Assembly (NCBI GenBank): GCA_937860145.1
Contig: CALMBF010000096.1
Coordinates: 1 to 39,124 of the forward strand
Direction of reading: 5' to 3'
DNA: 39,124 bases
DNA from: an uncultured Geobacter sp.
GTDB taxonomy: Bacteria > Desulfobacterota > Desulfuromonadia > Geobacterales > DSM-12255
This document shows, in pieces, positions 6,938 to 20,966 of this stretch. The position numbers were made by a program, and so were the translations under genes. Numbering within the stretch: position 1 is the stretch's first letter; every line of letters begins with the position of its first letter. The notes below the pieces were generated by a model that was given only the letters and a program-made list of their open reading frames with translations, made no database searches and was not told the origin of the DNA.

Positions 6938-6969
6938 CATGGCAAAACATCATCAAGGGGGAAACGAAG

Positions 6970-7350
6970 ATGGCAAAGGTTCTCGAAGTCTACAAGTGTG
7001 ATATCTGCGGCAATATTGTCGAGCTCTTTCTCTCGGGAGGGGGCCCCCTTTCCTGTTGCGGCGAACCCATGAAGCTCATGGAGGAGAATACGGTCGACGC
7101 TTCCAAGGAGAAGCACGTGCCGGTCATCGAGAAGGGTGACGGCAAGGTGACCGTGAAGGTCGGTTCCGTCCCCCACCCCATGGAAGAGGCCCACTACATC
7201 CAGTGGATCGAGATCATCGACGACGGCAAGATCTCCCGCCAGATGCTCAAGCCGGGCCAGGCACCGGAAGCGTCCTTCTGCGTGAAGTCGGACAAGGTGG
7301 TGGCGAGGGAGTATTGCAACCTGCATGGCCACTGGAAAGCCGAGGGGTAG
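6970..7350 (+). CDS. dfx: Desulfoferrodoxin (superoxide reductase)
   Basis: A 126-residue two-centre superoxide reductase. The N-terminal desulforedoxin domain carries centre I ligands CDIC (10-13) and the adjacent Cys pair in LSCCGEPM. The catalytic centre II domain follows, with KEKH (the Glu-Lys-His loop), HPMEEAHYI and the Cys/His pair in YCNLHGHW. It reduces superoxide to peroxide without making O2, normally with rubredoxin as donor. ATG 6970 has an AAGGGGGAAA ribosome site. An earlier short ATG at about 6939 is out of frame and ignored. The gene ends in front of a palindromic element and a strong terminator, which closes the oxygen-defence unit. Confidence 0.95.
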
Positions 7351-7355
7351 GAGTC

Positions 7356-7473
7356 GGGCCGCGATATTTCCGCAATCTCGGCGTTGACCTGCGGGATTCC
7401 TTGTGCGGCGTAGCGCTGCTACGCCTCCGCGTCATCCCTTGGTCGCCTTGACCTTGCGAAAATCTCACGGCCC
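7356..7473. repeat. Palindromic repeat element, intact copy
   Basis: About 118 bp that folds on itself: GGGCC(G) at one end matches (C)GGCCC at the other, the arms match imperfectly throughout, and the apex is GGCGTAGC-GCT-GCTACGCC (7407-7425). The core CTTGTGCGGCGTAGC and GCTACGCCTCCGCG recurs in the larger element at 10333-10532. REP-like dispersed palindrome. Confidence 0.75.
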
Positions 7474-7487
7474 GGATGATGATACAA

Positions 7488-7515
7488 AGGAGGGGGGGCA
7501 TCTGCCCCCCCTTTT
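7488..7515 (+). terminator. Rho-independent terminator after the superoxide reductase gene
   Basis: GGGGGGGCA (7492-7500) pairs with TGCCCCCCC (7503-7511), followed by TTTTCTTG. It lies after the palindromic element and before the LarA-family gene, so it separates two transcription units. Confidence 0.85.
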
Positions 7516-7559
7516 CTTGTCTTTACCATACCGGCGTGCTCGGGTATCATAAAAGGATT

Positions 7560-8825
7560 ATGGAACTTCATTACGGCGACAGCAGTTTCAGTATCGAACT
7601 CCCCGAGGGGAGCGGTGGCTCGGTCATCCGGGTGACCCCGACGGTGCCGGAAGCGGCGCCCGAGGCGATCATCGCCGCTGCACTGGACGGCTGCGGTGAA
7701 CAGATCGGCCGGATAGCACCCGGTGACAACGTGGTGATCGTCACCTCGGACATCACCCGCTACACGGGGAGCGAGATCTACCTGCCGCTCCTGGTGGAGC
7801 GGCTGAACCGCGCCGGCGTGGCCGACGGCCAGATCACCATCGTCATCGCCCTGGGGATCCACCGGAAGCAGACCGAGTCGGAGCACAAGAAGATCGTCGG
7901 CCCCCTCCATGGCAGGATCCGGGTGGTTGACCACGACTGCGACGACCCGGGGAAGCTGGTCCTCTTGGGGATTACGGGGAACGGCATCGAGGTGGAGATC
8001 AACCGGACGGTTGCCGAGGCTGATCACGTGATCCTTACCGGCACCATCGGGTTCCACTACTTTGCCGGGTTTGGGGGGGGGCGCAAGAGCATCCTCCCCG
8101 GAGTCGCCAGCCGCAGGAGCTGCATGGCGAGCCACTTCGCCGTGCTCAACCCGGGGGAGGGTGCCGGGAAGAACCCCCGGGCCGCCACCGGCGTCCTGGA
8201 GGGGAACCCGGTCCACCAGGCGATGGTGGATGCCTGCGCCATGGTGGAGCCGCTGTTCATCCTCAACACGGTGCTCGCCCCGGACAAGCGGCTCCTGGCC
8301 GCCTTTGCCGGCGACTGGCAACAGGCCCACGCCGCGGGGTGCGAGTACTACGGAAAAGAATTCTCCTTTGCCATCGGTGCGAAGAGCGACCTGGTGGTGG
8401 TCTCCTGCGGTGGTTTCCCCAAGGACATCAACCTGATCCAGGCCCACAAGTCCATGGAGTACGGCTCCCGGGCGCTGCGGGATGGCGGGGTCATGGTCCT
8501 TCTGGCCGAATGCCGGGACGGCTACGGCAATGCCACGTTTTTCAACTGGTTCCGCCATGCCGCTCTGGAGGAGTTCGAGGCCGAGCTGCGCAAACAGTAC
8601 GAGATCAACGGCCAGACCGCCTATTCCCTGCGGCAGAAGGCGCTCCGCTTCCGGATCATCCTCGTCTCCCGCCTCCCCCACGAAGAAGTCAGGACCATGG
8701 GGATGATACCCGCGGACGACCTGTACGAGGCGCTGGAGATGGCCGAGGAGTTTCTGCCGGAGGAGTACAGCGCCTACATCATCCCCGAAGGGGGGACGGT
8801 CCTGCCGGTGCTGCGCCAGTCTTGA
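7560..8825 (+). CDS. larA: LarA-family protein (nickel-pincer lactate racemase family)
   Basis: A 421-residue protein of the LarA family, whose type member racemises lactate with a covalently bound nickel-pincer nucleotide. Family residues are visible: TSDITR in the N-terminal half, ALGIHRKQT, the signature GFHYFAGFGGGRKSILPG with the catalytic His and the cofactor-binding Lys, and a later Lys in CGGFPKDINLIQAHK. ATG 7560 begins the conserved fold (MELHYGDSSFSIELP); the AGG before it is close. LarB, LarC and LarE, which make the cofactor, are not in this window. The next genes encode a D-lactate/glycolate-type oxidase pair, so racemisation of lactate to feed that oxidase is plausible. LarA homologues act on other 2-hydroxy acids too. 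Confidence 0.85.
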   Translation: MELHYGDSSFSIELPEGSGGSVIRVTPTVPEAAPEAIIAAALDGCGEQIGRIAPGDNVVIVTSDITRYTGSEIYLPLLVERLNRAGVADGQITIVIALGIHRKQTESEHKKIVGPLHGRIRVVDHDCDDPGKLVLLGITGNGIEVEINRTVAEADHVILTGTIGFHYFAGFGGGRKSILPGVASRRSCMASHFAVLNPGEGAGKNPRAATGVLEGNPVHQAMVDACAMVEPLFILNTVLAPDKRLLAAFAGDWQQAHAAGCEYYGKEFSFAIGAKSDLVVVSCGGFPKDINLIQAHKSMEYGSRALRDGGVMVLLAECRDGYGNATFFNWFRHAALEEFEAELRKQYEINGQTAYSLRQKALRFRIILVSRLPHEEVRTMGMIPADDLYEALEMAEEFLPEEYSAYIIPEGGTVLPVLRQS

Positions 8826-10554: not shown

Positions 10555-11841
10555 ATGAGTGAAAAAGATTTCAAAACAGATGCGCTCAAACGTGTCGAGC
10601 AGGAACTGAAGAAATGCGTCAAGTGCGGCGCCTGCCGGGCCCACTGCCCGGCCTTTGCCGCCTTCGGCAAGGAGCCGGCCGTGGCGCGGGGGAAGGTCGC
10701 CCTCTGCCAGCACCTCCTCAAGGGGGACATCGAGCTGGATGACGCCACCTATGCGGCCATGTCCAAGTGCCTTCTCTGCGGCAGCTGCGTGGAGAAGTGT
10801 CCGAACGACGTGCCGACCGACGAGATCGTCATGGTCGCCCGGGAAGCCCTGGCCCGCCAGCGGGGTCTGACCACCTTCCATGCCGCCGTGGGGAGGGTGA
10901 TCCGCAACCGTTCCCTGATGAAGTTCGGCGCCGCGGCTGCCCGGGTCCTCGGTCCCCTCTTCTTCAGGAAGGTGCCGGAAACCTCGGGCCTGCGCCTCCG
11001 TTTTCCCCTCCCCTTCGTCGGGGGCAAGCGGCATATCCCGCCCCTTGCCAAGACGCCGTTCCTGGAGCGCCACCCCGAGGTCATACCGGGGGAACCGGGG
11101 AAGCCGCGGATCGTCTTCTTCGTCGGCTGCATGACCAATTTCTGCTACCCCCAGGTGGGGGAGGCGACCCTGGCCCTGTTCCGGCACCTGGGGTGCACGG
11201 TGATCATCCCGAAGAACCAGCAGTGCTGCGGGCTTCCCGGCATGTCCGGCGGTGACCTGGAGACGGTGCGGGGGCTGGCGGAGAAGAACCTGGCCGAACT
11301 GGAACGGTACGAGGCCGATTACATCATGACCGCCTGCGCCACCTGCGGCGGAGCACTGCACAAGTTCTACCCCAATCTCGTCGGCAAGCGTCACCCCGAC
11401 CTGGCAGCGCGGCTGCAGGCGATCGCCGCCAAGACCGTCGATGCCGCCCAGCTTCTTCAAAAACTGGGGCTGAACCCGGAAGAGACCGGCGCCGGTGGCG
11501 ACGTGCGCATCACCTACCACGATCCCTGTCACCTGCGGACCAGGTCGATCACCAGGCAGCCCCGGGAGCTGCTCGCCGGCACCCCCGGGGTCGAACTGAC
11601 GGAGATGGAGGGGGCCGACAGGTGCTGCGGCCTCGGCGGTACCTTCAATGTCTATCACTACGACACGTCCATGCAGATCAATGCCGCCAAGAGCGACGCC
11701 ATCATCAGGACCGGCGCGACCGCCGTCGTCACCGGCTGCCCCGGCTGCATGATGCAGCTTTCCGACGGGCTCAAGCAGCGCGGCTCGGCGGTGAAAGTGG
11801 TCCACACCGTGGAGGTCCTGGCGAGAAAACTGCGCCGCTGA
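10555..11841 (+). CDS. glcF: Iron-sulphur subunit of the D-lactate/glycolate-type oxidase
   Basis: A 428-residue GlcF/LldE-like protein. Two [4Fe-4S] ferredoxin motifs lie near the N-terminus: CVKCGACRAHCP (about residues 21-32) and CLLCGSCVEKCPNDVP (about 74-89). Two CCG domains follow: GCMTNFCYPQ with NQQCCGLPG, and DPCHLRT with RCCGLGG and GCPGCMMQ. It would take electrons from the flavoprotein GlcD and pass them to quinone or another membrane acceptor; it has no membrane helix itself. I chose ATG 10555, since upstream in-frame codons run back through the palindromic repeat. AAAGG lies 11 nt upstream. A hairpin and a new promoter follow, so it probably ends the lactate-type unit. Confidence 0.9.
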   Translation: MSEKDFKTDALKRVEQELKKCVKCGACRAHCPAFAAFGKEPAVARGKVALCQHLLKGDIELDDATYAAMSKCLLCGSCVEKCPNDVPTDEIVMVAREALARQRGLTTFHAAVGRVIRNRSLMKFGAAAARVLGPLFFRKVPETSGLRLRFPLPFVGGKRHIPPLAKTPFLERHPEVIPGEPGKPRIVFFVGCMTNFCYPQVGEATLALFRHLGCTVIIPKNQQCCGLPGMSGGDLETVRGLAEKNLAELERYEADYIMTACATCGGALHKFYPNLVGKRHPDLAARLQAIAAKTVDAAQLLQKLGLNPEETGAGGDVRITYHDPCHLRTRSITRQPRELLAGTPGVELTEMEGADRCCGLGGTFNVYHYDTSMQINAAKSDAIIRTGATAVVTGCPGCMMQLSDGLKQRGSAVKVVHTVEVLARKLRR

Positions 11842-11859
11842 CCTATTCCCTACTATAAT

Positions 11860-11895
11860 GGTGGTTGATTCCAATGTTTATGGGGATCAGCCACC
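11860..11895 (+). terminator. Hairpin after glcF, weak terminator candidate
   Basis: GGTGGTTGATTCC (11860-11872) pairs with GGGATCAGCCACC (within 11882-11895) allowing G-U pairs. No T-run follows directly, so termination would be weak. Confidence 0.4.
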
Positions 11896-11926
11896 TCCCT
11901 TCCAACCCCCTGTTTGTAAATAATTA

Positions 11927-11955
11927 TTGACAGTTTATTCTTAAATCAGTATTTT
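11927..11955 (+). promoter_or_regulatory. Strong sigma-70-like promoter of the XRE-cupin gene
   Basis: A perfect TTGACA (11927-11932), a 17-nt spacer and TATTTT (11950-11955) in a very AT-rich stretch. Predicted transcription starts near 11962. Confidence 0.65.
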
Positions 11956-11962
11956 TAGCCGC

Positions 11963-11981
11963 AATAAAAACGGGTTTTATT
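11963..11981 (+). promoter_or_regulatory. Candidate operator of the XRE-cupin regulator
   Basis: The inverted repeat AATAAAA-ACGGG-TTTTATT lies just downstream of the predicted transcription start and 30 nt before the regulator's own ATG. Its place suits autorepression. I saw no second copy before neighbouring genes. Confidence 0.45.
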
Positions 11982-12010
11982 CCCTGCGTATACAGCGAGA
12001 ACGGCTACTA

Positions 12011-12574
12011 ATGTCTGAATATAATATCGGCTCGAAAATCAAGAAGCTGCGCCTGGCAAAAAAGCTCACTCTTCAGGCTGTTGCCAGGGAAACCGGCTTT
12101 TCTCCCGCGCTGATCTCCCAGATCGAAAATAATAACGTTTCCCCCCCCATCGCCACTCTCTCCAAAATAGCCAAGTTTTTCGATGTGAAGATCGGCATGT
12201 TCTTTACCGAGGACGAGGAGGAGTATCGCTACGAGGTGGTCCGCCGTGCCGAGCGCAAGCTCATCCCCCGGGTCATCTCCCGCGCCGGCACCAGCCAGGG
12301 CTACTCCTACGAATCCCTCTCCTTCCGCAAGCAGAACAAGAAGATGGAGCCGTTCCTCCTCTCCGTGACCGAGAAGGTTGCCGAGGAGAACACCTACAGC
12401 CATGACGGTGAGGAGTTCCTCTATGTCATGAAGGGGACGGCAGAGCTCCTGCTGGAGGACGAGAGGATTACCCTCGAAGAAGAAGATTGCGTGTATTTCG
12501 ACTCATCCCTCAGGCACCGGCTTCTTTCCAAAGATGGCGAAGAGGTGAGGGTGCTTGCCGTTGTGACCCGTTAG
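12011..12574 (+). CDS. XRE-family regulator with C-terminal cupin sensor domain
   Basis: A 187-residue protein with an N-terminal helix-turn-helix (about 6-60; IGSKIKKLRLAKKLTLQAVA, then the recognition helix SPALISQIENNNVSPPIATL) and a C-terminal cupin (about 110-185; ENTYSHDGEEFLYVMKG, then YFDSSLRHRLLS). This is the PuuR/SutR-like architecture in which a small molecule or metal binds the cupin and changes DNA binding. The ligand is unknown. It has its own promoter and lies directly upstream of the carboxylase/mutase genes and downstream of the oxidase pair, so it may control either. The ribosome site is weak. Cytoplasmic. Ordinary length for the family. Confidence 0.88.
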   Translation: MSEYNIGSKIKKLRLAKKLTLQAVARETGFSPALISQIENNNVSPPIATLSKIAKFFDVKIGMFFTEDEEEYRYEVVRRAERKLIPRVISRAGTSQGYSYESLSFRKQNKKMEPFLLSVTEKVAEENTYSHDGEEFLYVMKGTAELLLEDERITLEEEDCVYFDSSLRHRLLSKDGEEVRVLAVVTR

Positions 12575-12653
12575 TGACAATCGCTTAAAATCCGACAGAC
12601 AATCCCTGTTCGTACTACAGTAGAAAAATCCAATGACCGGAAGGAAGATGGAG

Positions 12654-14378
12654 ATGTCAAAAAATGCTGTCAAGCCACTGCTGAAGAACCCGTTTGATCC
12701 ACCCGAGAAGGTCGAGTTCACGATTCCCGGTGAGATATCCCGGACCACCGGCGGCTACGAAGAGGCGATGCAGGAGGGGTACGACCTCATCCAGCGCCCG
12801 ATCAAGTCGGTCAAGGTCGACCAGATCGAGAAGCAGCACTTCAAGAAACGGATGACCGTCTGGGAGCGCCTGTCGGTGCTCTCCGGCGAGAAGCCGAATG
12901 TCCTCTACCAGAACTGGGGGAAGAACCTCGATGGTGCCTCCCTGGTCACCGCCATCCTCAACATCGGCGGCCGGGACGTTGCCGTGTACGGTCACGATTT
13001 CACCGTCCGTGCCGGTTCCATCGACGCCACCAACGGTCGCAAGCTTGCCAACCTGTTCCGCCTCGCCGGGGAGAAGGGGATCCCCCTCATCGGCATGAAC
13101 GACTCGGCCGGTGCGTTCGTCCCCGCCGGGGTCGGCGGCCTTGACGGCTATGCCGAGGCATTCACCGCCCTGCGCAAGATCAGCGGCGTCGTCCCCTCCA
13201 TCATGTGCATGTTCGGCTTCAATGCCGGCGGTGGCTCCTACCTGCCCCGCCAGGGCTCCTTCGTCATCCAGCCGGCCGACACCTTCTTCGGCCTGACCGG
13301 CCCGGGGGTCGTCAAGTCCGTTCTCGGTGAGGACATCACCCCCGAGGAGCTGGGCGGGCCGAAGGTACACGGCAAGTCCGGCGTCGCCGACCTGACCGTG
13401 GCCGACGAGGTCGCCGCCCTCCGTACCGCGGTGCGCCTCCTCTCCTACATCCCGGACAACAACAGCGTGCTCGCCCCCTTCCAGGAGACCAGCGACCCGC
13501 TCGACCGGAAGACCTGGGAGATCAACACCCTGTTGAAAAAGGCCTTCAACTCGCCGACCGGTTTCAATACCCCCTTCGACATCTCGATCATCATCCAGCA
13601 GATCTGCGACCATGGCGACTATTTCGAACTGCAGCCGGAGCGCGCCAAGGAGGCGGTCACCGCGTTCGGCCGTATCGGCGGCCAGGTCGTCGGCTTCGTC
13701 GCCAACAACTCGGCCGTTGCCTCGGGCCAGATCGACTGCGACTCGGCCCTGAAGATCGCCCGGTTCAACCGCTTCTGCAACCTCTACAACATCCCGATGG
13801 TCTTCATGGAAGACACCACCGGCTTCCTCCCGGGCCGGGAGCAGGAGTCCCGCGGCATCGTCCAGGCCGGCCGCTCCATGCTCGACTCCATCGTCGACAT
13901 CCGCACGCCGCGCATCCTGCTGATCATCCGCAACGCCTTCGGTGGTGCCTACGCCTCCTACAACAACTACCCCACCGGCGCCGACCTGGTGCTGGCACTC
14001 CCCACCACCCGCCTGGCGGTCATGGGGCCGGCCGGCAAGGAGTTCGTCTACAAGGACGAACTGCGCAAGATCCGTGGCGAAGCCGCCAGCCTGGCCAAGA
14101 AGGGTGCCGAGGAGAGAATTGCCGCCGGCATGGAAGGCGGCGCTGCCAAGAAGGATGCCGAGCGGGAGGCTGCCGAGTGGCTCAAGGCCCAGGAGACCGC
14201 CCTCAATCTCCGCTACGAGAAAGAGCTGATGAACCCGAAAGAGGGTCTTGCCCTCGGCTCCATCTCGTCCATTGTCATGCCGACCGACCTGCGCCAGGTC
14301 CTTGGGGAGAACATCGCCTTCCTCATGCGTCACTACAAGGCAGTCCCCATGGGCGGACCGCAGCGGGAGTTCCACTAG
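12654..14378 (+). CDS. Acyl-CoA carboxylase, divergent carboxyltransferase subunit
   Basis: A 574-residue crotonase-fold carboxyltransferase. The N-terminal half shows [11 protein letters not shown], the oxyanion segment [17 protein letters not shown] and [10 protein letters not shown]; the C-terminal half shows [31 protein letters not shown] and [14 protein letters not shown]. It would move carboxyl from carboxybiotin to an acyl-CoA. Propionyl-CoA is the likely substrate because mutase and epimerase follow. It departs from standard PccB: the Asp after GGAY is Ala here (about residue 434), and the C-terminal part holds an extra charged stretch (about 470-525), which makes it some 50 residues longer than usual. 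ATG 12654 was chosen because AAGGA lies 8 nt before it; two earlier in-frame ATGs (12633, 12648) have worse spacing. Confidence 0.82.
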
Positions 14379-14385
14379 AAAAATA

Positions 14386-14476
14386 ACCTGCCACAGGGGC
14401 GCGGGAAAACGGACGGGCAGCGAGAGGCATGTCCCCGACTGCTTCCTGCCCTGTGCCCTGGCGGCGGATTCCAGGT
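14386..14476 (+). other. Intercistronic region with possible hairpins
   Basis: The 130-nt gap between carboxyltransferase and biotin carboxylase genes contains alternative stems (GGGCAG/CTGCCC; CACAGGG/CCCTGTG; ACCTG/CAGGT) that compete with each other. No T-run is placed to terminate until TTTTTTG near 14485. Confidence 0.35.
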
Positions 14477-14508
14477 TTTGACTATTTTTTGATTGGAGAT
14501 AGAGACAT

Positions 14509-17388
14509 ATGAACGACCTCTACATGAACAACCCCCTGATTCACCGCGATCGCCGGCTGGGTAACTCCCCGTCCGAGTGGGTCCGCTCGTTTGCCTGTGA
14601 GGATCTGAAACCGCTCATCGTCTGTCGTGGTCCCATTCGTAAGGAAGCCATGGATGTTTTCGAGGAGATGGGGATCACCCACTACGGTATCCTCCTCTCC
14701 GAGAAGGACTCCATCGTCTATGCCAATGCCCTGGCTCCGGAGCTGCGCCAGCTGACCGATTCCAACCGCGTTCACCGGGTGCCCGACTACACCGGCGCCA
14801 GCAAGGAGGAGCGGGTCGAGCGGATCGGCCAGATCATCCAGATCGCCAAGGATAACGGGTACGACTCCATCTTCGCCGGCTACGGTTTCATGGCCGAGGA
14901 CGAGGAGTTCGTCGCCGAGATCGAGAAGGCCGGTCTCTCCTTCATGGGGCCCAACTCCCGCACCCAGGCCGATGCCGGCAAGAAGGACGAGGCGAAGCGG
15001 ACCGCCCTGGCAGTAGGGGTCAGCGTCACCCCCGGCATCAACAACGTGACGGCCCGCACCCTGGTGAAGAAGCACGGTACCCGGGAGAAACTGCTGTCCC
15101 TGGCAAAGGCCGAGGGGATCGAGCTTGACCCTAAGGTGGCGAAGGACACGAAGCTTTCCCTGGAGGACCTTGCGGACGAGATCCTCTACGCCTCCTACGA
15201 GAAGGGGCTCGACCTCTATACCATCGAGGAGCTGAGTGCCCAGGTCCAGGTCGAAGTCGAGAACATGTTCCGGGAGTACCCGGGGAGCCGGATCCGCCTG
15301 AAAGCCATCGGCGGCGGTGGGGGCAAGGGGCAGCGGATCCTCGGCGCCTCCCTGCTGACGGCCAAGAACCCCACGGACAAGCAGATCAAGGAGGCCGCCG
15401 CCGAAACGCCGACCCTGGTGCGCGAGGTCCTGAACGAGGTCAAGGCCAACGGCGTGGGGGACAACAAGAACGTCCTGATCGAGCTGAACATCGAGCAGAC
15501 CCGCCACAACGAGATCCAGCTGGTCGGCAACGGCGAGTGGTGCGTGTCCCTGGGTGGCCGCGACTGCTCCCTGCAGATGCACGAGCAGAAGCTGCTGGAG
15601 ATCTCCGTGACCCAGGAAGGTCTGGCCGCTGCCATCGAGACGGCGAAGAAGGCCGGCCGCAAGGCAGAGGTGAAGGCCCTGGAGAGCGACCTCAAGGTCC
15701 TCAAGCGGATGGAGGAGGATTCCACTAAGTTCGGCCAGGCCGTCGGCCTCGATTCCGCCTCCACCTTCGAGTGCATCGTCGACCGGGACCGCTACTACTT
15801 CATGGAGGTGAACACCCGGATCCAGGTGGAGCACCGGGTCTCGGAGCTCTGCTACTCCCTCAAGTTCACCAACCCGAAGGACAAGAACGACTTTTTCATC
15901 GTCGAATCACTGGTGGAGGCCATGGCCCTGCTGGTGAAGCACAAGAAGCGGCTTCCCAAGCCGGAGCGGGTCCCCCGTTTCGGCGCCGGCGCCGAAGCCC
16001 GGCTCAACGCCACCGATGCCTCCCTCTCCCCCCATGCCGGCGGCATGATCCGCTACTGGTCAGCACCCATCGAGGGGGAGATCCGCGACGACCAGGGGAT
16101 CTGCCTGAAGAACCCGGACACGGGGATGTTCATGCGCTACAAGGTGGCCGGCGCCTATGACTCCAACATCGCCCTGCTCCTCACCAAGGGTGAGGACCGT
16201 CTCGACAGCTACCAGCACCTGGCCAAGGTCCTGGGTAAGACGACCCTGCGCGGTACCGACCTGGCCACCAACCTGGAGTTCCACTACGGTCTGGTCAACT
16301 GGTTCCTCGGTCAGAACGTCATGGCCAAGCCGACCACCCGCTTCGTCGTCCCCTACCTCACCCTGGTCGGCCAGCTGAAGGAAGAGGCGGGCAAGCTCGA
16401 CACCGTGGCGGCCTTCCTGCAGCTGAAGAAGCACTATGCCAAGAAGATGGCCGAGCAGTTCCCCGACGATTCCAAGATCGCCAAGGAGATGTCGGCAATC
16501 CTCGACCGGAAGGGGACCCTCGTCACCCGCCCCATGGACAAGCTCCTGGAAGACCCGCACCTCCTCGCCGGCTGGCTCTCCATCAACCGGAAGAATTTCA
16601 CCATGGAAAAGGGGAAGGTGGTCTGGCACGACAACCCCTTCGTCATCCTCGCCGACACCTACGACTACCTGAACATGGCCTTCGATCCGGCCGCCCCGGC
16701 TGCCGAGGTGATCTGGAGCCACGACAACGACCTGCTCCAGAAGGGGCTCCGTTTCTACACCACCCTCTCCGAGCGCTTCAAGCTCGGGCTCCACGAGTTT
16801 GACAAGCTCTCTGCCCTGCTGGCCAAGGAGAAGCCGCAGAATGGCTTCTCCCCCGAGGAGTGGGTCGAGATCCAGTCGGCCCACATGGGCTTCGAGGCCG
16901 GGCTGGAACTGCTCGGGATGCTCTTCCTCGTTGCCGAGCATGTCAAGTTCTGGGACTTCAGGGTGGAAGAGGATCTGGAAGTCACGATTCCCGACTACCT
17001 CCACGATGCCGAACTGCAGACCCGGATGAAGAAGATCCTGGTGCCGCCGCCGGCCACCAAGGCCGACGAGATCGTCGCCGTCTGCGGCGGGATGTACTAC
17101 GGCCAGGAGGCTCCCGGCCTTCCCCCCTTCGTTGCCGAGGGGATGCACTTCGAGAAGGGGCAGGCGCTCTACATCATCGAGGTCATGAAGATGTTCAACA
17201 CCGTCCGGGCCACCTTCTCCGGTACCATCGACAAGATCATCATGCAGGGTGCCGACGGCAGCATCGTCCAGAAAGGGCAGCCGCTCTTCAAGGTCACCCC
17301 GGACGAGAAGTTCGTGGAAGTCGATCCGGAAGAGCTCAAGCAGCTGAAGCGTGAGAGGACCATCGCCTACCTGAAGGCGATCGTCTAG
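14509..17388 (+). CDS. Atypical biotin carboxylase fused to a biotin carrier domain
   Basis: A 959-residue protein. Residues about 33-175 form the biotin-carboxylase N-domain (IFAGYGFMAEDEEF, FMGPNSRTQADAG). The ATP-grasp glycine loop is KAIGGGGGKGQR at about 265-276, followed by TRHNEIQLVG and GGRDCSLQMHEQK; the catalytic segment FMEVNTRIQVEHRV lies near 431-444. The C-terminus is a biotinyl domain with the biotin Lys in EVMKMF (Lys 894). Unusual points: about 60 extra residues between VTPG and the glycine loop, and roughly 300 residues of unassigned middle region before the carrier. Its length greatly exceeds ordinary AccC (about 450) or AccA3/PccA-type fusions (about 600-670). It should load CO2 onto biotin for the carboxyltransferase encoded upstream. 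ATG 14509 has GGAGAT about 9 nt upstream. Confidence 0.85.
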   Translation: MNDLYMNNPLIHRDRRLGNSPSEWVRSFACEDLKPLIVCRGPIRKEAMDVFEEMGITHYGILLSEKDSIVYANALAPELRQLTDSNRVHRVPDYTGASKEERVERIGQIIQIAKDNGYDSIFAGYGFMAEDEEFVAEIEKAGLSFMGPNSRTQADAGKKDEAKRTALAVGVSVTPGINNVTARTLVKKHGTREKLLSLAKAEGIELDPKVAKDTKLSLEDLADEILYASYEKGLDLYTIEELSAQVQVEVENMFREYPGSRIRLKAIGGGGGKGQRILGASLLTAKNPTDKQIKEAAAETPTLVREVLNEVKANGVGDNKNVLIELNIEQTRHNEIQLVGNGEWCVSLGGRDCSLQMHEQKLLEISVTQEGLAAAIETAKKAGRKAEVKALESDLKVLKRMEEDSTKFGQAVGLDSASTFECIVDRDRYYFMEVNTRIQVEHRVSELCYSLKFTNPKDKNDFFIVESLVEAMALLVKHKKRLPKPERVPRFGAGAEARLNATDASLSPHAGGMIRYWSAPIEGEIRDDQGICLKNPDTGMFMRYKVAGAYDSNIALLLTKGEDRLDSYQHLAKVLGKTTLRGTDLATNLEFHYGLVNWFLGQNVMAKPTTRFVVPYLTLVGQLKEEAGKLDTVAAFLQLKKHYAKKMAEQFPDDSKIAKEMSAILDRKGTLVTRPMDKLLEDPHLLAGWLSINRKNFTMEKGKVVWHDNPFVILADTYDYLNMAFDPAAPAAEVIWSHDNDLLQKGLRFYTTLSERFKLGLHEFDKLSALLAKEKPQNGFSPEEWVEIQSAHMGFEAGLELLGMLFLVAEHVKFWDFRVEEDLEVTIPDYLHDAELQTRMKKILVPPPATKADEIVAVCGGMYYGQEAPGLPPFVAEGMHFEKGQALYIIEVMKMFNTVRATFSGTIDKIIMQGADGSIVQKGQPLFKVTPDEKFVEVDPEELKQLKRERTIAYLKAIV

Positions 17389-17405
17389 GCTCGGGACGGA
17401 TGGGA

Positions 17406-17430
17406 GGTCTGGCGGCCATGTCGCCAGACC
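17406..17430 (+). other. Perfect intercistronic hairpin
   Basis: GGTCTGGCG and CGCCAGACC form a 9-bp stem with a 7-nt loop 17 nt after the carboxylase stop. No T-run follows, so a role in mRNA processing or protection is likelier than termination. Confidence 0.6.
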
Positions 17431-17556
17431 GGCCGCGCTGCCTGTCGCCCGATCATTGTCCGCTGCCGTGTTGCATTTGGAACCGTTCAGTGGTTGAATT
17501 ACTGTGTCGGTGCGAAATTCCTGCCTCATACACATACAAACGCACAGGAGGATGTC

Positions 17557-18192
17557 GTGAGAAAAGGTAAATTTATCGTTGTCGAGGGGATCAGCGGCTC
17601 CGGCCAGCAGGTCAAGGCGGGAATCGTTGCCCTGCACAAGGCGCTGGTCGAATTGAACTACGATGTTGTCGAATGTGCAAATCCAGATTCCGGGCGGGTG
17701 AAGGAACTGGGGATGGCGTCCATGCTCAACTGGCCGTTCGGCAAGAACGCCCGGGCTGACTTCATTTTCGAGGGTGCCGTGAGGACCGAGATCTTCAAGA
17801 ACATCGTCGAGCCGGCGCTGCAGCAGGACAAGATCGTGCTCTGCAAACAGTCGAGCATCTCCTCCCTGGCCAATGCCTGGGTAAGCGGCTACACGAAGCA
17901 TTTCGACGTCCTGCGCCACCTGGACAAGATATCCCGCGGCTTTCTCTTCGAGGACGAGATCTATCCCGACCTGACCATTTTCATGGATGTGCCCGCCGAA
18001 GAGGCATACGAGCGGATCGAGGATGTGCTGCAGATCCACCACGAGGGGGGGATTGACTATTACCGGCAGATGCGGGACTTCTATCTCAAGGAACTCCCCC
18101 GTTGGCGCGGGGTGAGGGTCGATGCCTCCGCTGCCAGGAGCGAGGAAGAGTATACCGCCGACGCGCTGGCCCTGGTCAAGGCTATCCTCTGA
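17557..18192 (+). CDS. Thymidylate-kinase-like protein with degenerate active site
   Basis: A 211-residue protein with the thymidylate kinase fold pattern: KGKFIVVEGISGSGQQ at the N-terminus, IVLCKQSSISSLANAW in the middle and YPDLTIFMDVPAEEAYERI near the C-terminus. The P-loop has Gln 17 and Gln 18 where the family has Lys and Ser/Thr. The nucleotide-binding DR(Y/H) motif is replaced by Lys-Gln-Ser (97-99), although the following SSLA remains. Both changes should abolish ordinary phosphoryl transfer, so it is probably not a working dTMP kinase. It starts at GTG 17557 with AGGAGG 5 nt upstream; an in-frame ATG at 17494 lacks such a site. It lies between the carboxylase and methylmalonyl-CoA mutase genes, suggesting a role in that module, but the function is unknown. 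Confidence 0.85.
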   Translation: MRKGKFIVVEGISGSGQQVKAGIVALHKALVELNYDVVECANPDSGRVKELGMASMLNWPFGKNARADFIFEGAVRTEIFKNIVEPALQQDKIVLCKQSSISSLANAWVSGYTKHFDVLRHLDKISRGFLFEDEIYPDLTIFMDVPAEEAYERIEDVLQIHHEGGIDYYRQMRDFYLKELPRWRGVRVDASAARSEEEYTADALALVKAIL

Positions 18193-18224
18193 GAATAGCA
18201 GTCACGGTCTTTTAATGCCTTTTG

Positions 18225-18281
18225 CATCCCCTTTCCCCTGTCGGCATTGATGGTTCCATGCCGCCACGGGTAAAGGGGATG
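18225..18281 (+). other. Long intercistronic hairpin before the mutase gene
   Basis: CATCCCCTTT...TCGGCAT pairs with ATGCCG...TAAAGGGGATG around a 10-nt loop, giving an interrupted stem of more than 20 bp. It ends about 30 nt before the mutase start. No T-run follows directly. Confidence 0.65.
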
Positions 18282-18312
18282 TTCTCATTTACCGCTAGAG
18301 AAGGAGATTGAC

Positions 18313-19965
18313 ATGAGCATTGCTGACAGGAAAAAAGTCTGGGCCGAGAAGGTCATCGCCGGTCTGGCCAAGCGTCCGGAGCGGAAAAACGAGTTCCGGA
18401 CTTCTTCGAAGATCGAAATGGAGCGCTGCTTCACCCCGGATTTCGACTACCCCGGCTACGACGAGAACCTCGGCTTCCCCGGCCAGTACCCGTATACCCG
18501 CGGCGTCCAGCCGACCATGTACCGCGGCCAGTTCTGGACCATGCGCCAGTATGCCGGCTTCGGCACCGCCAGGGAATCCAACGAACGGTACAAGTACCTC
18601 CTCTCCGCCGGCCAGACCGGACTTTCCGTTGCCTTCGACCTCCCGACCCAGATGGGGTACGACTCTGATGCCGCCATGGCAGCCGGGGAAGTCGGCAAGG
18701 TCGGGGTGGCCATCGACTCCCTCGCCGACATGGAGATCCTCTTCGACGGCATACCCCTGGACAAGGTCTCCACCTCCATGACCATCAACTCCACGGCTGC
18801 CATCCTCCTCTGCATGTACATCGCCGTGGCGGAGAAGCAGGGGGTGTCGCCGGACAAGATCTCCGGAACGATCCAGAACGACATCCTCAAGGAGTACATG
18901 GCCCGGGGGACCTACATCTACCCGCCGAAGGAGTCCATGCGGATCATCACCGACATCTTCGCCTACTGCAAGGATAGCGTTCCCAAGTGGAACACCATCT
19001 CCATCTCCGGCTACCACATCCGCGAGGCCGGCTCCAGCGCCGTGCAGGAGGTCGCCTTCACCCTCGCCGACGGTATCGCCTACGTGGATGCCGCCATCAA
19101 GGCGGGACTGGACGTGGACGAGTTCGCCCCGCGGCTGGCCTTCTTCTTCAATGCCCACAACAACCTGCTTGAAGAGGTGGCCAAGTTTCGCGCCGCCCGT
19201 CGTCTCTGGGCCAGGATCATGAAGGAGCGCTTCAAGGCCAAGGACCCCAAATCCCAGATGCTCCGCTTCCACACCCAGACCGCCGGCTGCACCCTGACCG
19301 CCCAGCAGCCTGACAACAACATCATGCGGGTCACCATCCAGGCCCTGGCGGCCGTGCTCGGCGGGACCCAGTCGCTGCACACGAACTCCCGGGACGAGGC
19401 CCTTGCCCTTCCGACCGAGGACTCGGTCCGGATCGCTCTCCGTACCCAGCAGGTCATCGCCTACGAATCGGGCGTGGCCGACTCCATCGACCCCCTGGCC
19501 GGTTCCTTCCTGGTGGAGTCACTCACCGACCAGATCGAGAAGGCAGCCCAGGAGTACATCGACAAGATCGACTCGCTGGGCGGTGCGGTGGAAGCCATCT
19601 CCCGCGGCTTCCAGCAGAAGGAGATCCAGGATTCGGCCTACGCCTACCAGCGGGCCATCGAAACCGACGACATGATCATCGTCGGGGTGAACAAGTTCAC
19701 CGTCGAGAACGAACCGGCGCCGGAACTCCTGAAGATCAAGGAAGAGGTGGAGATCGCCCAGAAGAAATCCCTTGCCGCCATGAGGGGGGGGAGGGACGAG
19801 GCTGCGGTCAAGGCCGCCCTGGCCGCCCTGCAGACCGCGGCAAAGGGGAGCGATAACCTCATGCCCCACATCCTTGCCGCGGTGAAGACCTACGCCACCC
19901 TGGGCGAGATTGCCAACGTCTTCAGAGAGGTGTTCGGCGTCCACCGCGAGACGGTGGTCCTGTAG
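18313..19965 (+). CDS. mcmA: Methylmalonyl-CoA mutase, large (catalytic) subunit
   Basis: A 550-residue TIM-barrel mutase domain. Typical segments are visible: [103 protein letters not shown] and the C-terminal FGVHRE. It interconverts (R)-methylmalonyl-CoA and succinyl-CoA by a radical mechanism needing adenosylcobalamin. The protein stops before the usual B12-binding domain (no DXHXXG motif), so it is the large subunit of the two-gene form; the small cobalamin subunit is not in the window. ATG 18313 has AAGGAGA about 7 nt upstream. It follows the carboxylase genes and precedes the epimerase gene, which fits a propionyl-CoA/succinyl-CoA route. A terminator hairpin follows at once. Confidence 0.93.
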
Positions 19966-19975
19966 TCAATCCCTG

Positions 19976-20011
19976 CGGGGGTAGCCGCCAACCGGCTATC
20001 CCCGTTTTTTT
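19976..20011 (+). terminator. Terminator between mutase and epimerase genes
   Basis: CGGGGGTAGCCG and CGGCTATCCCCG form a 12-bp stem with one mismatch, followed by T7. It stands only 18 nt before the epimerase start, so it probably lowers read-through into that gene. Confidence 0.85.
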
Positions 20012-20029
20012 GACCTGAAAGGAGTCCTC

Positions 20030-20434
20030 ATGTTGCACAAAATCAACCATATCGGCATTGCCGTGCAATCCCTTGATGCTACGGTGCCGTTCTACCGCGA
20101 TGTCCTCCGGATGCCGCTGGCCGGCATCGAAGAGGTCGCCGAGCAGAAGGTGCGCGTCGCCATGTTCGGTGTCGGCGAGTCAAAGATCGAGCTGCTGGAA
20201 CCGACGTCCGACGACAGCCCGGTGGCCAAATTCCTGGAAAAGAACGGCCAGGGGATCCACCATATTGCCTATGAAGTGGCCGACATCGAAGGTGCGATAG
20301 CATCCCTTCTCGCCGAGGGGGCGAGGATGATCGACGAGAAGCCGCGCAGCGGCGCCCACGGGACCAGGATCGCCTTCGTGCACCCCAAGAGCAGCCACGG
20401 TGTGCTGACCGAACTCTGCCAGTCGGGGCATTGA
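20030..20434 (+). CDS. mce: Methylmalonyl-CoA epimerase
   Basis: A 134-residue glyoxalase/vicinal-oxygen-chelate protein with both beta-alpha-beta modules: INHIGIAVQSL at the start, IELLEP, GIHHIAYEV and VHPKSSHGVLTELCQ. The two His and the Glu residues are the metal ligands of the family. It interconverts the (S) and (R) forms of methylmalonyl-CoA, linking carboxylase product and mutase substrate. ATG 20030 has AAAGGAG about 6 nt upstream. It follows the mutase gene after a Rho-independent terminator, so it depends on read-through or on an unseen promoter. Normal length, cytoplasmic. Confidence 0.94.
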   Translation: MLHKINHIGIAVQSLDATVPFYRDVLRMPLAGIEEVAEQKVRVAMFGVGESKIELLEPTSDDSPVAKFLEKNGQGIHHIAYEVADIEGAIASLLAEGARMIDEKPRSGAHGTRIAFVHPKSSHGVLTELCQSGH

Positions 20435-20588
20435 TGGCGGTGCGTGGTGTCCTTGTTCAGGTAGCGCAGGGAGCAGCCGCCGGGGGCTAACCGGAAGGTC
20501 GCTGTTCAGGAAAGCGGCAGAGGGCAATGAAGATTTTCGACGGACGGAACGATGCAGGTTTATTTTGTAACGATGTTTGAAAATATCC

Positions 20589-20616
20589 TTGACTTTGGTT
20601 TGAAAAACTGTATCAT
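20589..20616 (+). promoter_or_regulatory. Upstream promoter candidate of the porin gene
   Basis: TTGACT (20589-20594), 16 nt, TATCAT (20611-20616), about 350 nt before the porin ATG. Confidence 0.45.
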
Positions 20617-20705
20617 GCGGCATAGATTTTAGAACAACACGGTATTCCCCGTGCCGATACGACGGTGTTTGCGGGCGACTGTTTTGAAACATTTCAATTA
20701 GAAAC

Positions 20706-20734
20706 TTGACAATATCGTGGATCATATGTATTTT
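20706..20734 (+). promoter_or_regulatory. Main promoter candidate of the porin gene
   Basis: TTGACA (20706-20711), 17 nt, TATTTT (20729-20734). Transcription from about 20741 would give a leader of about 226 nt containing the hairpin at 20804-20844. Confidence 0.55.
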
Positions 20735-20761
20735 CACAGGGAAATTTATTTGAAGGTGTCA

Positions 20762-20797
20762 ATGATAAATTTTGTACCGGTGACATGTCCGTACTGA
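20762..20797 (+). CDS. Possible 11-codon leader peptide before the porin attenuator
   Basis: ATG 20762 to TGA 20797 encodes MINFVPVTCPY. GAAGG stands 5 nt upstream and the stop lies 7 nt before the terminator-like stem. No run of one amino acid is present, so if it acts as an attenuation peptide the signal is not a simple codon run. It may be chance. Confidence 0.25.
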   Translation: MINFVPVTCPY

Positions 20798-20803
20798 ATA
20801 ATG

Positions 20804-20857
20804 ACCCTGGACGCCTTTCCCTTTACGGGGAAAAGCGACAGGGTTTTACTTTTTTTA
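20804..20857 (+). terminator. Terminator-like hairpin in the porin leader (attenuator candidate)
   Basis: ACCCTGGACGCCTTTCCC (20804-20821) pairs with GGGGAAAAGCGACAGGGT (20827-20844) over about 18 bp with few mismatches, and is followed by TTTACTTTTTTT. It is a complete Rho-independent terminator, yet it stands downstream of the porin promoters and 110 nt upstream of the porin start. Confidence 0.75.
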
Positions 20858-20966
20858 TGCGGAAGGGATGAAAATTTACTGGAGAGGTGGTGATGACAGC
20901 GTAGTCGATCACGCAGTACGAACCCTTTTAATCCAGATGTTTACATCAACCATAAAGGAGGCATCA

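Follow-up and report, generated by a model that had tools for sequence, protein, structure and literature searches.

A putative pseudoenzyme with a thymidylate kinase fold encoded between carboxylase and methylmalonyl-CoA-mutase-type genes in Geobacterales

What does a thymidylate-kinase-like protein do when its gene lies between the genes of an apparent acyl-CoA carboxylase and a methylmalonyl-CoA-mutase-type subunit, and its nucleotide motifs lack the usual catalytic residues? The question is raised by an uncultured Geobacter sp. (Desulfobacterota; Geobacterales), in which the gene lies on contig CALMBF010000096.1 of assembly GCA_937860145.1. The whole contig stretch of 39,124 nucleotides was analyzed and is called the window here. 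An earlier note, made from the letters of the window, proposed a kinase fold that had lost phosphoryl transfer and been reused, possibly as an assembly or repair partner of the mutase in place of MeaB, or as a sensor of a CoA ester or nucleotide. The protein is designated TMKL, and thymidylate kinase is abbreviated TMK. No paper on TMKL was found in the open-licence PubMed Central papers searched. A pseudoenzyme of known fold is a known kind of protein, and the TMKL variant and its operon place appear to be undescribed in that literature.

The gene cluster

In the window the regulator gene comes first, followed by those for the carboxyltransferase, biotin carboxylase, TMKL, mutase, and epimerase, which completes the set. 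The features are as follows.

12011–12574, + strand: HTH (XRE) and cupin regulator, first gene of the cluster (HTH_3, 50.3 bits; Cupin_2, 48.2 bits).
12633–14378, + strand: carboxyltransferase subunit, 581 aa (Carboxyl_trans, 340.8 bits).
14509–17388, + strand: divergent biotin carboxylase and biotin carrier subunit, 959 aa (CPSase_L_D2, Biotin_carb_N, and Biotin_lipoyl).
17546–17551, + strand: TMKL ribosome-binding site, AGGAGG, read directly.
17557–18192, + strand: TMKL, 211 aa, GTG start, a putative thymidylate-kinase-fold pseudoenzyme by sequence, profiles, and predicted fold.
18313–19965, + strand: methylmalonyl-CoA-mutase-type large subunit, 550 aa (MM_CoA_mutase, 777.5 bits; TIGR00641, 813.3 bits).
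19975–20005, + strand: strong terminator-like hairpin after the mutase gene, with a 13-pair stem and a T run.
20030–20434, + strand: methylmalonyl-CoA epimerase (TIGR03081, 170.8 bits; cut-off 114.95).

The hairpin is the only + strand site listed over positions 11700–20900 in a promoter and terminator scan that is weak (5 sites overall against a mean of 8.0 in shuffles). The same weak scan lists nothing promoter-like or terminator-like on the + strand in the stretch from the carboxylase genes to the mutase gene.

The carboxylase pair scored far below every NCBIfam cut-off listed, the best values being 176 against 965 bits for the biotin carboxylase and 333 against 998.8 bits for the carboxyltransferase. 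Residues ~152–297 of the biotin carboxylase carry no Pfam domain, a hint of an insert. Judged by sequence, the pair seems to form a divergent class of acyl-CoA carboxylase common in the order. Its substrate is probably propionyl-CoA because mutase and epimerase genes adjoin. The carboxyltransferase is 87–92% identical among operon relatives that hold the gene whole. Relatives whose contig extends so far have an HTH-cupin regulator ahead of the carboxylase genes, save at locus L187 of genome G016, where none was found. The biotin carboxylase gene of genome G006 (G006:C4:248070-250948) is split into two overlapping frames by a frameshift or an assembly error.

A thymidylate kinase relative

TMKL scored 33 bits against PF02223, over the Pfam cut-off of 27, and 26 of 26 orthologues matched this family at E ≤ 0.001. 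Among the NCBIfam profiles, TIGR00041 alone was matched (E ≤ 1 for the TMKL of the window, E ≤ 0.001 for 26 members), and TIGR00750 (MeaB) gave no match. TIGR00041 is the dTMP kinase equivalog. TMKL scored 59.2 bits against its cut-off of 83.25, which was missed by all 27 orthologue rows. The score against PF01712 (dNK) was 12.8 bits, under the cut-off of 27. A phmmer search of the PDB returned 25 sequences at E ≤ 0.1, of which 24 are TMKs (best 3ld9, 1.5e-10).

An AlphaFold2 model of TMKL had a mean pLDDT of 89.3 and a pTM of 0.87. Its input alignment held 39 rows, made up of 23 TMKL orthologues, 6 sister proteins, and 10 normal Tmks. With this model, all 50 of the Foldseek matches listed were TMKs. 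The best VIA-align 2 match was the Thermus thermophilus TMK, with Z 22.7 and rmsd 1.9 over 177 residues. By sequence and by predicted fold, TMKL is a relative of thymidylate kinase.

The former active site

According to PMC3169407, the TMK P-loop motif is GX4GK(S/T), and the enzyme also has an acidic P-loop residue and a catalytic Arg, located in the P-loop in type I and in the LID in type II. The corresponding features of TMKL are listed below, with counts based on one TMKL copy per genome in 26 genomes.

17605–17610, + strand: codons 17–18, Gln-Gln, at the place of the P-loop Lys-Ser/Thr, by direct reading (Lys in 0/26).
17680–17697, + strand: NPDSGR, residues 42–47, a signature of the family close to where TMK has EPGG, found by column conservation.
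17770–17784, + strand: EGAVR, residues 72–76, with Arg76 invariant in 26/26.
17842–17856, + strand: CKQSS, residues 96–100, at the place of the C-D-R-F/Y motif (K97, Q98, and S99 each in 26/26).
18019–18051, + strand: LID-like segment EDVLQIHHEGG, residues 155–165, without Arg (0/26 against 10/10 normal Tmks).

Residues 11–20 read GISGSGQQVK, with Gln17-Gln18 where TMK has Lys-Ser/Thr. Residues 96–99 read Cys-Lys-Gln-Ser within the strand VLCKQSS, and Lys-Gln stands at the place of the TMK Asp-Arg. Direct reading thus bore out both substitutions described in the earlier note, GISGSGQQ for the P-loop and Lys-Gln-Ser at 97–99 for DR(Y/H).

The earlier note left it to be seen whether these changes recur in homologues. 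The loss of the P-loop Lys and the Lys-Gln replacement do so in all 26 orthologues, but the exact Gln-Gln pair occurs in only 20, the others having PQ, AQ, LQ, QH, QS, or PR. Residue 17 is Q in 22, P in 2, A in 1, and L in 1. Residue 18 is Q in 23, H in 1, S in 1, and R in 1, so that Ser/Thr is found at this position in a single orthologue (Ser in L014). Gln-Gln was therefore rejected as a conserved motif: the loss of Lys is universal, and its replacement is not. The P-loop acid of TMKs is also absent from all 26 (residue 13 is S in 19 and N in 7), as are the DR pair and, over residues 155–168, the LID Arg. All 10 of the aligned normal Tmks from the same genomes have the Glu, Lys, Ser/Thr, Asp-Arg, and LID Arg.

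Five of the six NPDSGR columns are invariant over the 26 orthologues, and the remaining column is kept in 25. Arg76 is also invariant across the 39-row alignment, normal Tmks included. NPDSGR and VLCKQSSISSL have almost no entropy, and the values are low for the GISGSG backbone, EGAVR, and the LID; residues 17–20 stand at 0.70 against a protein mean of 0.69. The pocket has thus been rebuilt and fixed, and only the old ATP-phosphate contact drifts.

TMKL shares with bacterial type II TMK the fold, the domain length, the EG..GSG loop backbone, the Arg of the ADR/AVR helix, and the PDLT strand. It differs in having none of the P-loop acid, P-loop Lys, DR, and LID Arg, in carrying NPDSGR for EPGG, and in falling under the dTMP kinase cut-off. 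One would not expect TMK chemistry to proceed once these elements are gone, and the sequences argue strongly that TMKL is non-catalytic. The earlier proposal is supported in that phosphoryl transfer has very likely been lost from a TMK fold.

A point against a wholly dead protein is Lys20, present in 21 of the 26 orthologues (otherwise Thr in 4 and Arg in 1). The start of the helix after the P-loop aligns with two more residues than that of TMK, and Lys20 in this longer helix start could conceivably contact phosphate in a shifted register. TMKL might be an enzyme of altered chemistry, such as a transferase or hydrolase, that does without the canonical Lys and Asp-Arg. The strict invariance of the pocket, which resembles that of an active site, the Lys97 that replaces Asp throughout, and Lys20 itself are in keeping with such an enzyme; all tested phosphate-handling elements of TMK are lost, but for Ser18 of L014, and this reading is judged quite unlikely.

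Distribution and selection

Of 141 genomes in the order, 26 have a TMKL orthologue, with 67–91% identity. They amount to 27 copies, as genome G020 carries two. Geobacter argillaceus ATCC BAA-1139 is a named strain with TMKL (locus L037). In the class, the TMKL group (group 1) occurs in 26 of 277 genomes, all 26 within the order, and no new TMKL was found in a draw of 395 genomes from the phylum. A scan of an 84,980-species collection used exact peptide patterns, which pick up close relatives only. All 10 close matches are named Geobacter, Geobacteraceae, Desulfuromonadales, or Deltaproteobacteria, and 5 further matches are remote (25–28%).

No in-frame stop was found in TMKL in the 26 genomes. 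Values of dN/dS are 0.02–0.23 in the 14 closest pairs listed and 0.02–0.09 in the closest six, and TMKL is under purifying selection. A normal tmk elsewhere, for which the earlier note had advised looking, is present over cut-off in 25 of the 26 genomes; none was seen in G013, which is 81% complete. The normal tmk of G004 (G004:C136:32314-32916) has one TAG within the frame.

A local sequencing or assembly error was rejected as the source of the changes because Lys and Asp-Arg are missing from all 26 orthologues in 26 genomes. Homologues with an intact P-loop in the same operon place, named beforehand as the sign of such an error, number 0 of 26. The gene could instead be a functionless, decaying tmk copy or a passenger, as the patchy presence of TMKL on the carboxylase tree and the variability of residues 17–18 might suggest. 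The open frames and the low dN/dS speak against decay, a decaying pseudogene was rejected on the latter, and a functionless gene is extremely improbable. Catalytic residues lost in all 26 orthologues, open frames, purifying selection, and a tmk elsewhere together point to a real, selected pseudoenzyme.

The patchiness amounts to 6 changes in 36 rows of the carboxylase tree, which covers 25 of the 26 TMKL genomes (G020 was omitted because its carboxylase piece is short). TMKL was rejected on this count as a marker of one carboxylase clade.

A conserved gene place

At all 26 TMKL loci, the biotin carboxylase/carrier gene lies directly upstream and the mutase gene directly downstream. The orthologues span four family codes and occupy this one gene place throughout, so that the position beside the mutase, whose conservation in many genomes the earlier note had put in question, holds generally. 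The median gap is 82 nt to the carboxylase gene (25 places) and 97 nt to the mutase gene (23 places).

A carboxylase relative (E ≤ 1e-60) occurs in 123 of the 141 order genomes, and mutase-type proteins likewise occur in 123 of 141. TMKL is missing from 97 of the 123 carboxylase-bearing genomes, 13 of which have a sister family. At 126 carboxylase places examined, the mutase lies downstream on the same contig at 106, with TMKL between in 23; carboxylase hits that were fragmentary (8) and the weaker mutase hits did not enter this count. Wide carboxylase-mutase gaps might hide a divergent TMKL, but none was seen among the open reading frames of the 15 TMKL-less gaps read (L119–L131, L133, and L134). 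A small antisense zinc-ribbon frame (~70 aa, beginning MQCPVCKN) is present in 14 of these 15 gaps, L123 being the exception. It has relatives, many of them remote, in 94 of 141 order genomes (E ≤ 1e-6).

Genome G020 has two TMKL-mutase segments (G020:C22 and G020:C111), each beginning in a carboxylase tail at a contig end. The operon thus seems duplicated there, TMKL included. G001 has another copy of the carboxylase (L185), which stops at a contig end and is uninformative on TMKL.

Relatives outside the operon

The sister family, group 2, is TMK-like and 30–37% identical to TMKL. It was found in 13 genomes of the order and in G162 and G163 of the class, together 15 of the 277 genomes of the class. 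Its neighbors vary, and its loci include L032–L035, L114–L116, and L137. Its loops read GSGKL, GSGRL, GTGRY, GTGTS, or GTGKL, and the DR place reads CKN, CKS, or CKH. Group 2 forms the sister clade of TMKL (support 100/98), apart from normal Tmks and a third, TMK-like pair. Both families have KGK..V.EGI.GSG, PD.GR, and CK at the DR place. Group 2 was not seen beside a mutase gene at the six loci examined.

No order genome was seen with both TMKL and group 2, against 2.4 expected (p 0.06), and the same comparison limited to carboxylase-bearing genomes gave p 0.04. These values are only suggestive of mutual exclusion in the order. In the window's genome, positions 6948–8325 of locus L117 (G000:C163) hold tandem TMK-like genes with P-loops GSGKS and GSGRS. 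The pair recurs in several order genomes, and its neighbors in L117 are presumably CHAD- and Ppx-like genes from a look at their sequences.

TMKL might serve another process, unrelated to its neighbors. The 97 carboxylase-bearing genomes without it and the location of the sister subfamily elsewhere in the genome fit such a role, but the constancy of one gene place in 26 of 26 orthologues makes it very unlikely. A free-standing sensor of a CoA ester or nucleotide, acting on the HTH-cupin regulator or elsewhere and merely carried by the operon, is an unlikely reading. It would explain why the old acceptor pocket is rebuilt and invariant and why a related subfamily is found outside the carboxylase operon, but Pfam and NCBIfam profiles gave TMKL neither a domain for binding DNA nor one for output.

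Carboxylase or mutase as partner

The MeaB/ArgK-type GTPase (TIGR00750) is a mutase chaperone of the P-loop fold class, and its genes are linked to mutase genes. Pfam found no B12-binding domain in the 550-aa mutase large subunit. On contig C89 of the window's genome (L188, 2558–4506), a 132-aa B12-binding protein adjoins a MeaB, next to a gene that we take from its sequence to be CobO-like. The two proteins are likely the small subunit of the mutase and its chaperone.

TMKL could therefore be a partner of the B12-dependent mutase that acts in assembly, cofactor loading, or repair, or that links the separate large and B12-binding subunits. This reading draws on the mutase gene directly downstream at every locus and on the split mutase, whose B12-binding subunit lies elsewhere beside MeaB. 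Against it, MeaB is present over cut-off in 25 of the 26 TMKL genomes (none was seen in G130, 79% complete). In G124, the TMKL operon includes MeaB, just downstream of the mutase. The G124 mutase is of a different, long type (54% identity), yet TMKL is kept there, and the G124 carboxylase is 84% identical. MeaB and TMKL are alike in their P-loop fold class and in their linkage to the mutase, which for MeaB was seen in G124, and differ in that TMKL has no TIGR00750 match and no P-loop Lys. TMKL as a replacement for MeaB was rejected on the MeaB occurrences and the G124 operon, and a role in MeaB's stead in the assembly or repair of the mutase is not supported.

Divergent mutases were also found in G130, with pieces of 61–72% identity, and in G016, at 67% over 74 aa; contig ends cut both of them. 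In G124, G130, and G016, the 3 of 26 genomes with an other-type or divergent mutase, the carboxylase is 81–85% identical. The carboxylase is a steadier neighbor of TMKL than the mutase is.

Short flanks confined the distance comparisons to the C-terminal 425 residues of the carboxylase and the N-terminal 400 of the mutase. For tree distances, the correlation between TMKL and the carboxylase is r 0.70 (Mantel 0.0005), and that between TMKL and the mutase is r 0.08, or 0.375 without G124 (23/26 genomes). Raw distances gave r 0.70 with the carboxylase against 0.50 with the mutase, with a bootstrap difference of 0.04–0.38 (22/26 genomes). The mutase varies little (mean distance 0.094 against 0.228 and 0.321), which can itself lower a correlation, so the distances lean toward the carboxylase without proving it. 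The weaker correlation with the mutase still counts against a mutase partner, and such a role is considered unlikely.

Other observations count against the carboxylase. TMKL lies about equally close to the mutase gene, its presence on the carboxylase tree is patchy, and the 97 carboxylase genomes that lack TMKL indicate that the carboxylase can dispense with it.

Proposed role

The fixed place behind the carboxylase and the constancy of this arrangement where the mutase changes make an accessory role at the carboxylase the best bet, and they argue for it with moderate strength. TMKL probably helps or regulates this enzyme instead of making DNA precursors. In its specific form the favored reading, held tentatively, makes TMKL a TMK-fold protein without catalysis that serves the upstream acyl-CoA carboxylase as an accessory or regulatory subunit, in the manner of NDUFA10.

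PMC8762328 describes NDUFA10 as a nucleoside-kinase-family subunit of complex I that has ERS in its DR(Y/H) loop and is proposed as a nucleotide receptor. The two proteins share a kinase fold with an altered DR(Y/H) loop, ERS in NDUFA10 and KQS in TMKL. NDUFA10 belongs to the deoxynucleoside kinase branch and is a proven subunit, whereas TMKL belongs to the TMK branch and is a candidate subunit. By its sequence, TMKL is not a member of the NDUFA10 family and would at most work like NDUFA10.

In the carboxylase reading, TMKL would be co-produced with the carboxylase subunits and would dock on the enzyme. The rebuilt nucleotide pocket (NPDSGR, Arg76, CKQSS, and the LID) would hold a ligand, either a nucleotide or a CoA ester, or a partner surface. 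That ligand or surface would stabilize or tune the carboxylase, as proposed for NDUFA10 in complex I. The invariance of the rebuilt pocket hints faintly at a ligand or partner loop held there.

A bolder form of the proposal would make TMKL an independently arisen bacterial counterpart of NDUFA10, a ligand-sensing subunit of an acyl-CoA carboxylase through which the carboxylase flux into the methylmalonyl-CoA pathway would respond to a nucleotide or CoA ester bound in the old nucleotide pocket. This is possible but doubtful.

Profile libraries offer no label but thymidylate kinase, which very likely misnames the family in all 26 genomes and would mislead metabolic models. If TMKL is a carboxylase subunit, nucleotide kinase folds would have been recruited a second time into a core metabolic enzyme as subunits without catalysis, and TMKL would provide a small, tractable system for asking what a dead kinase pocket senses.
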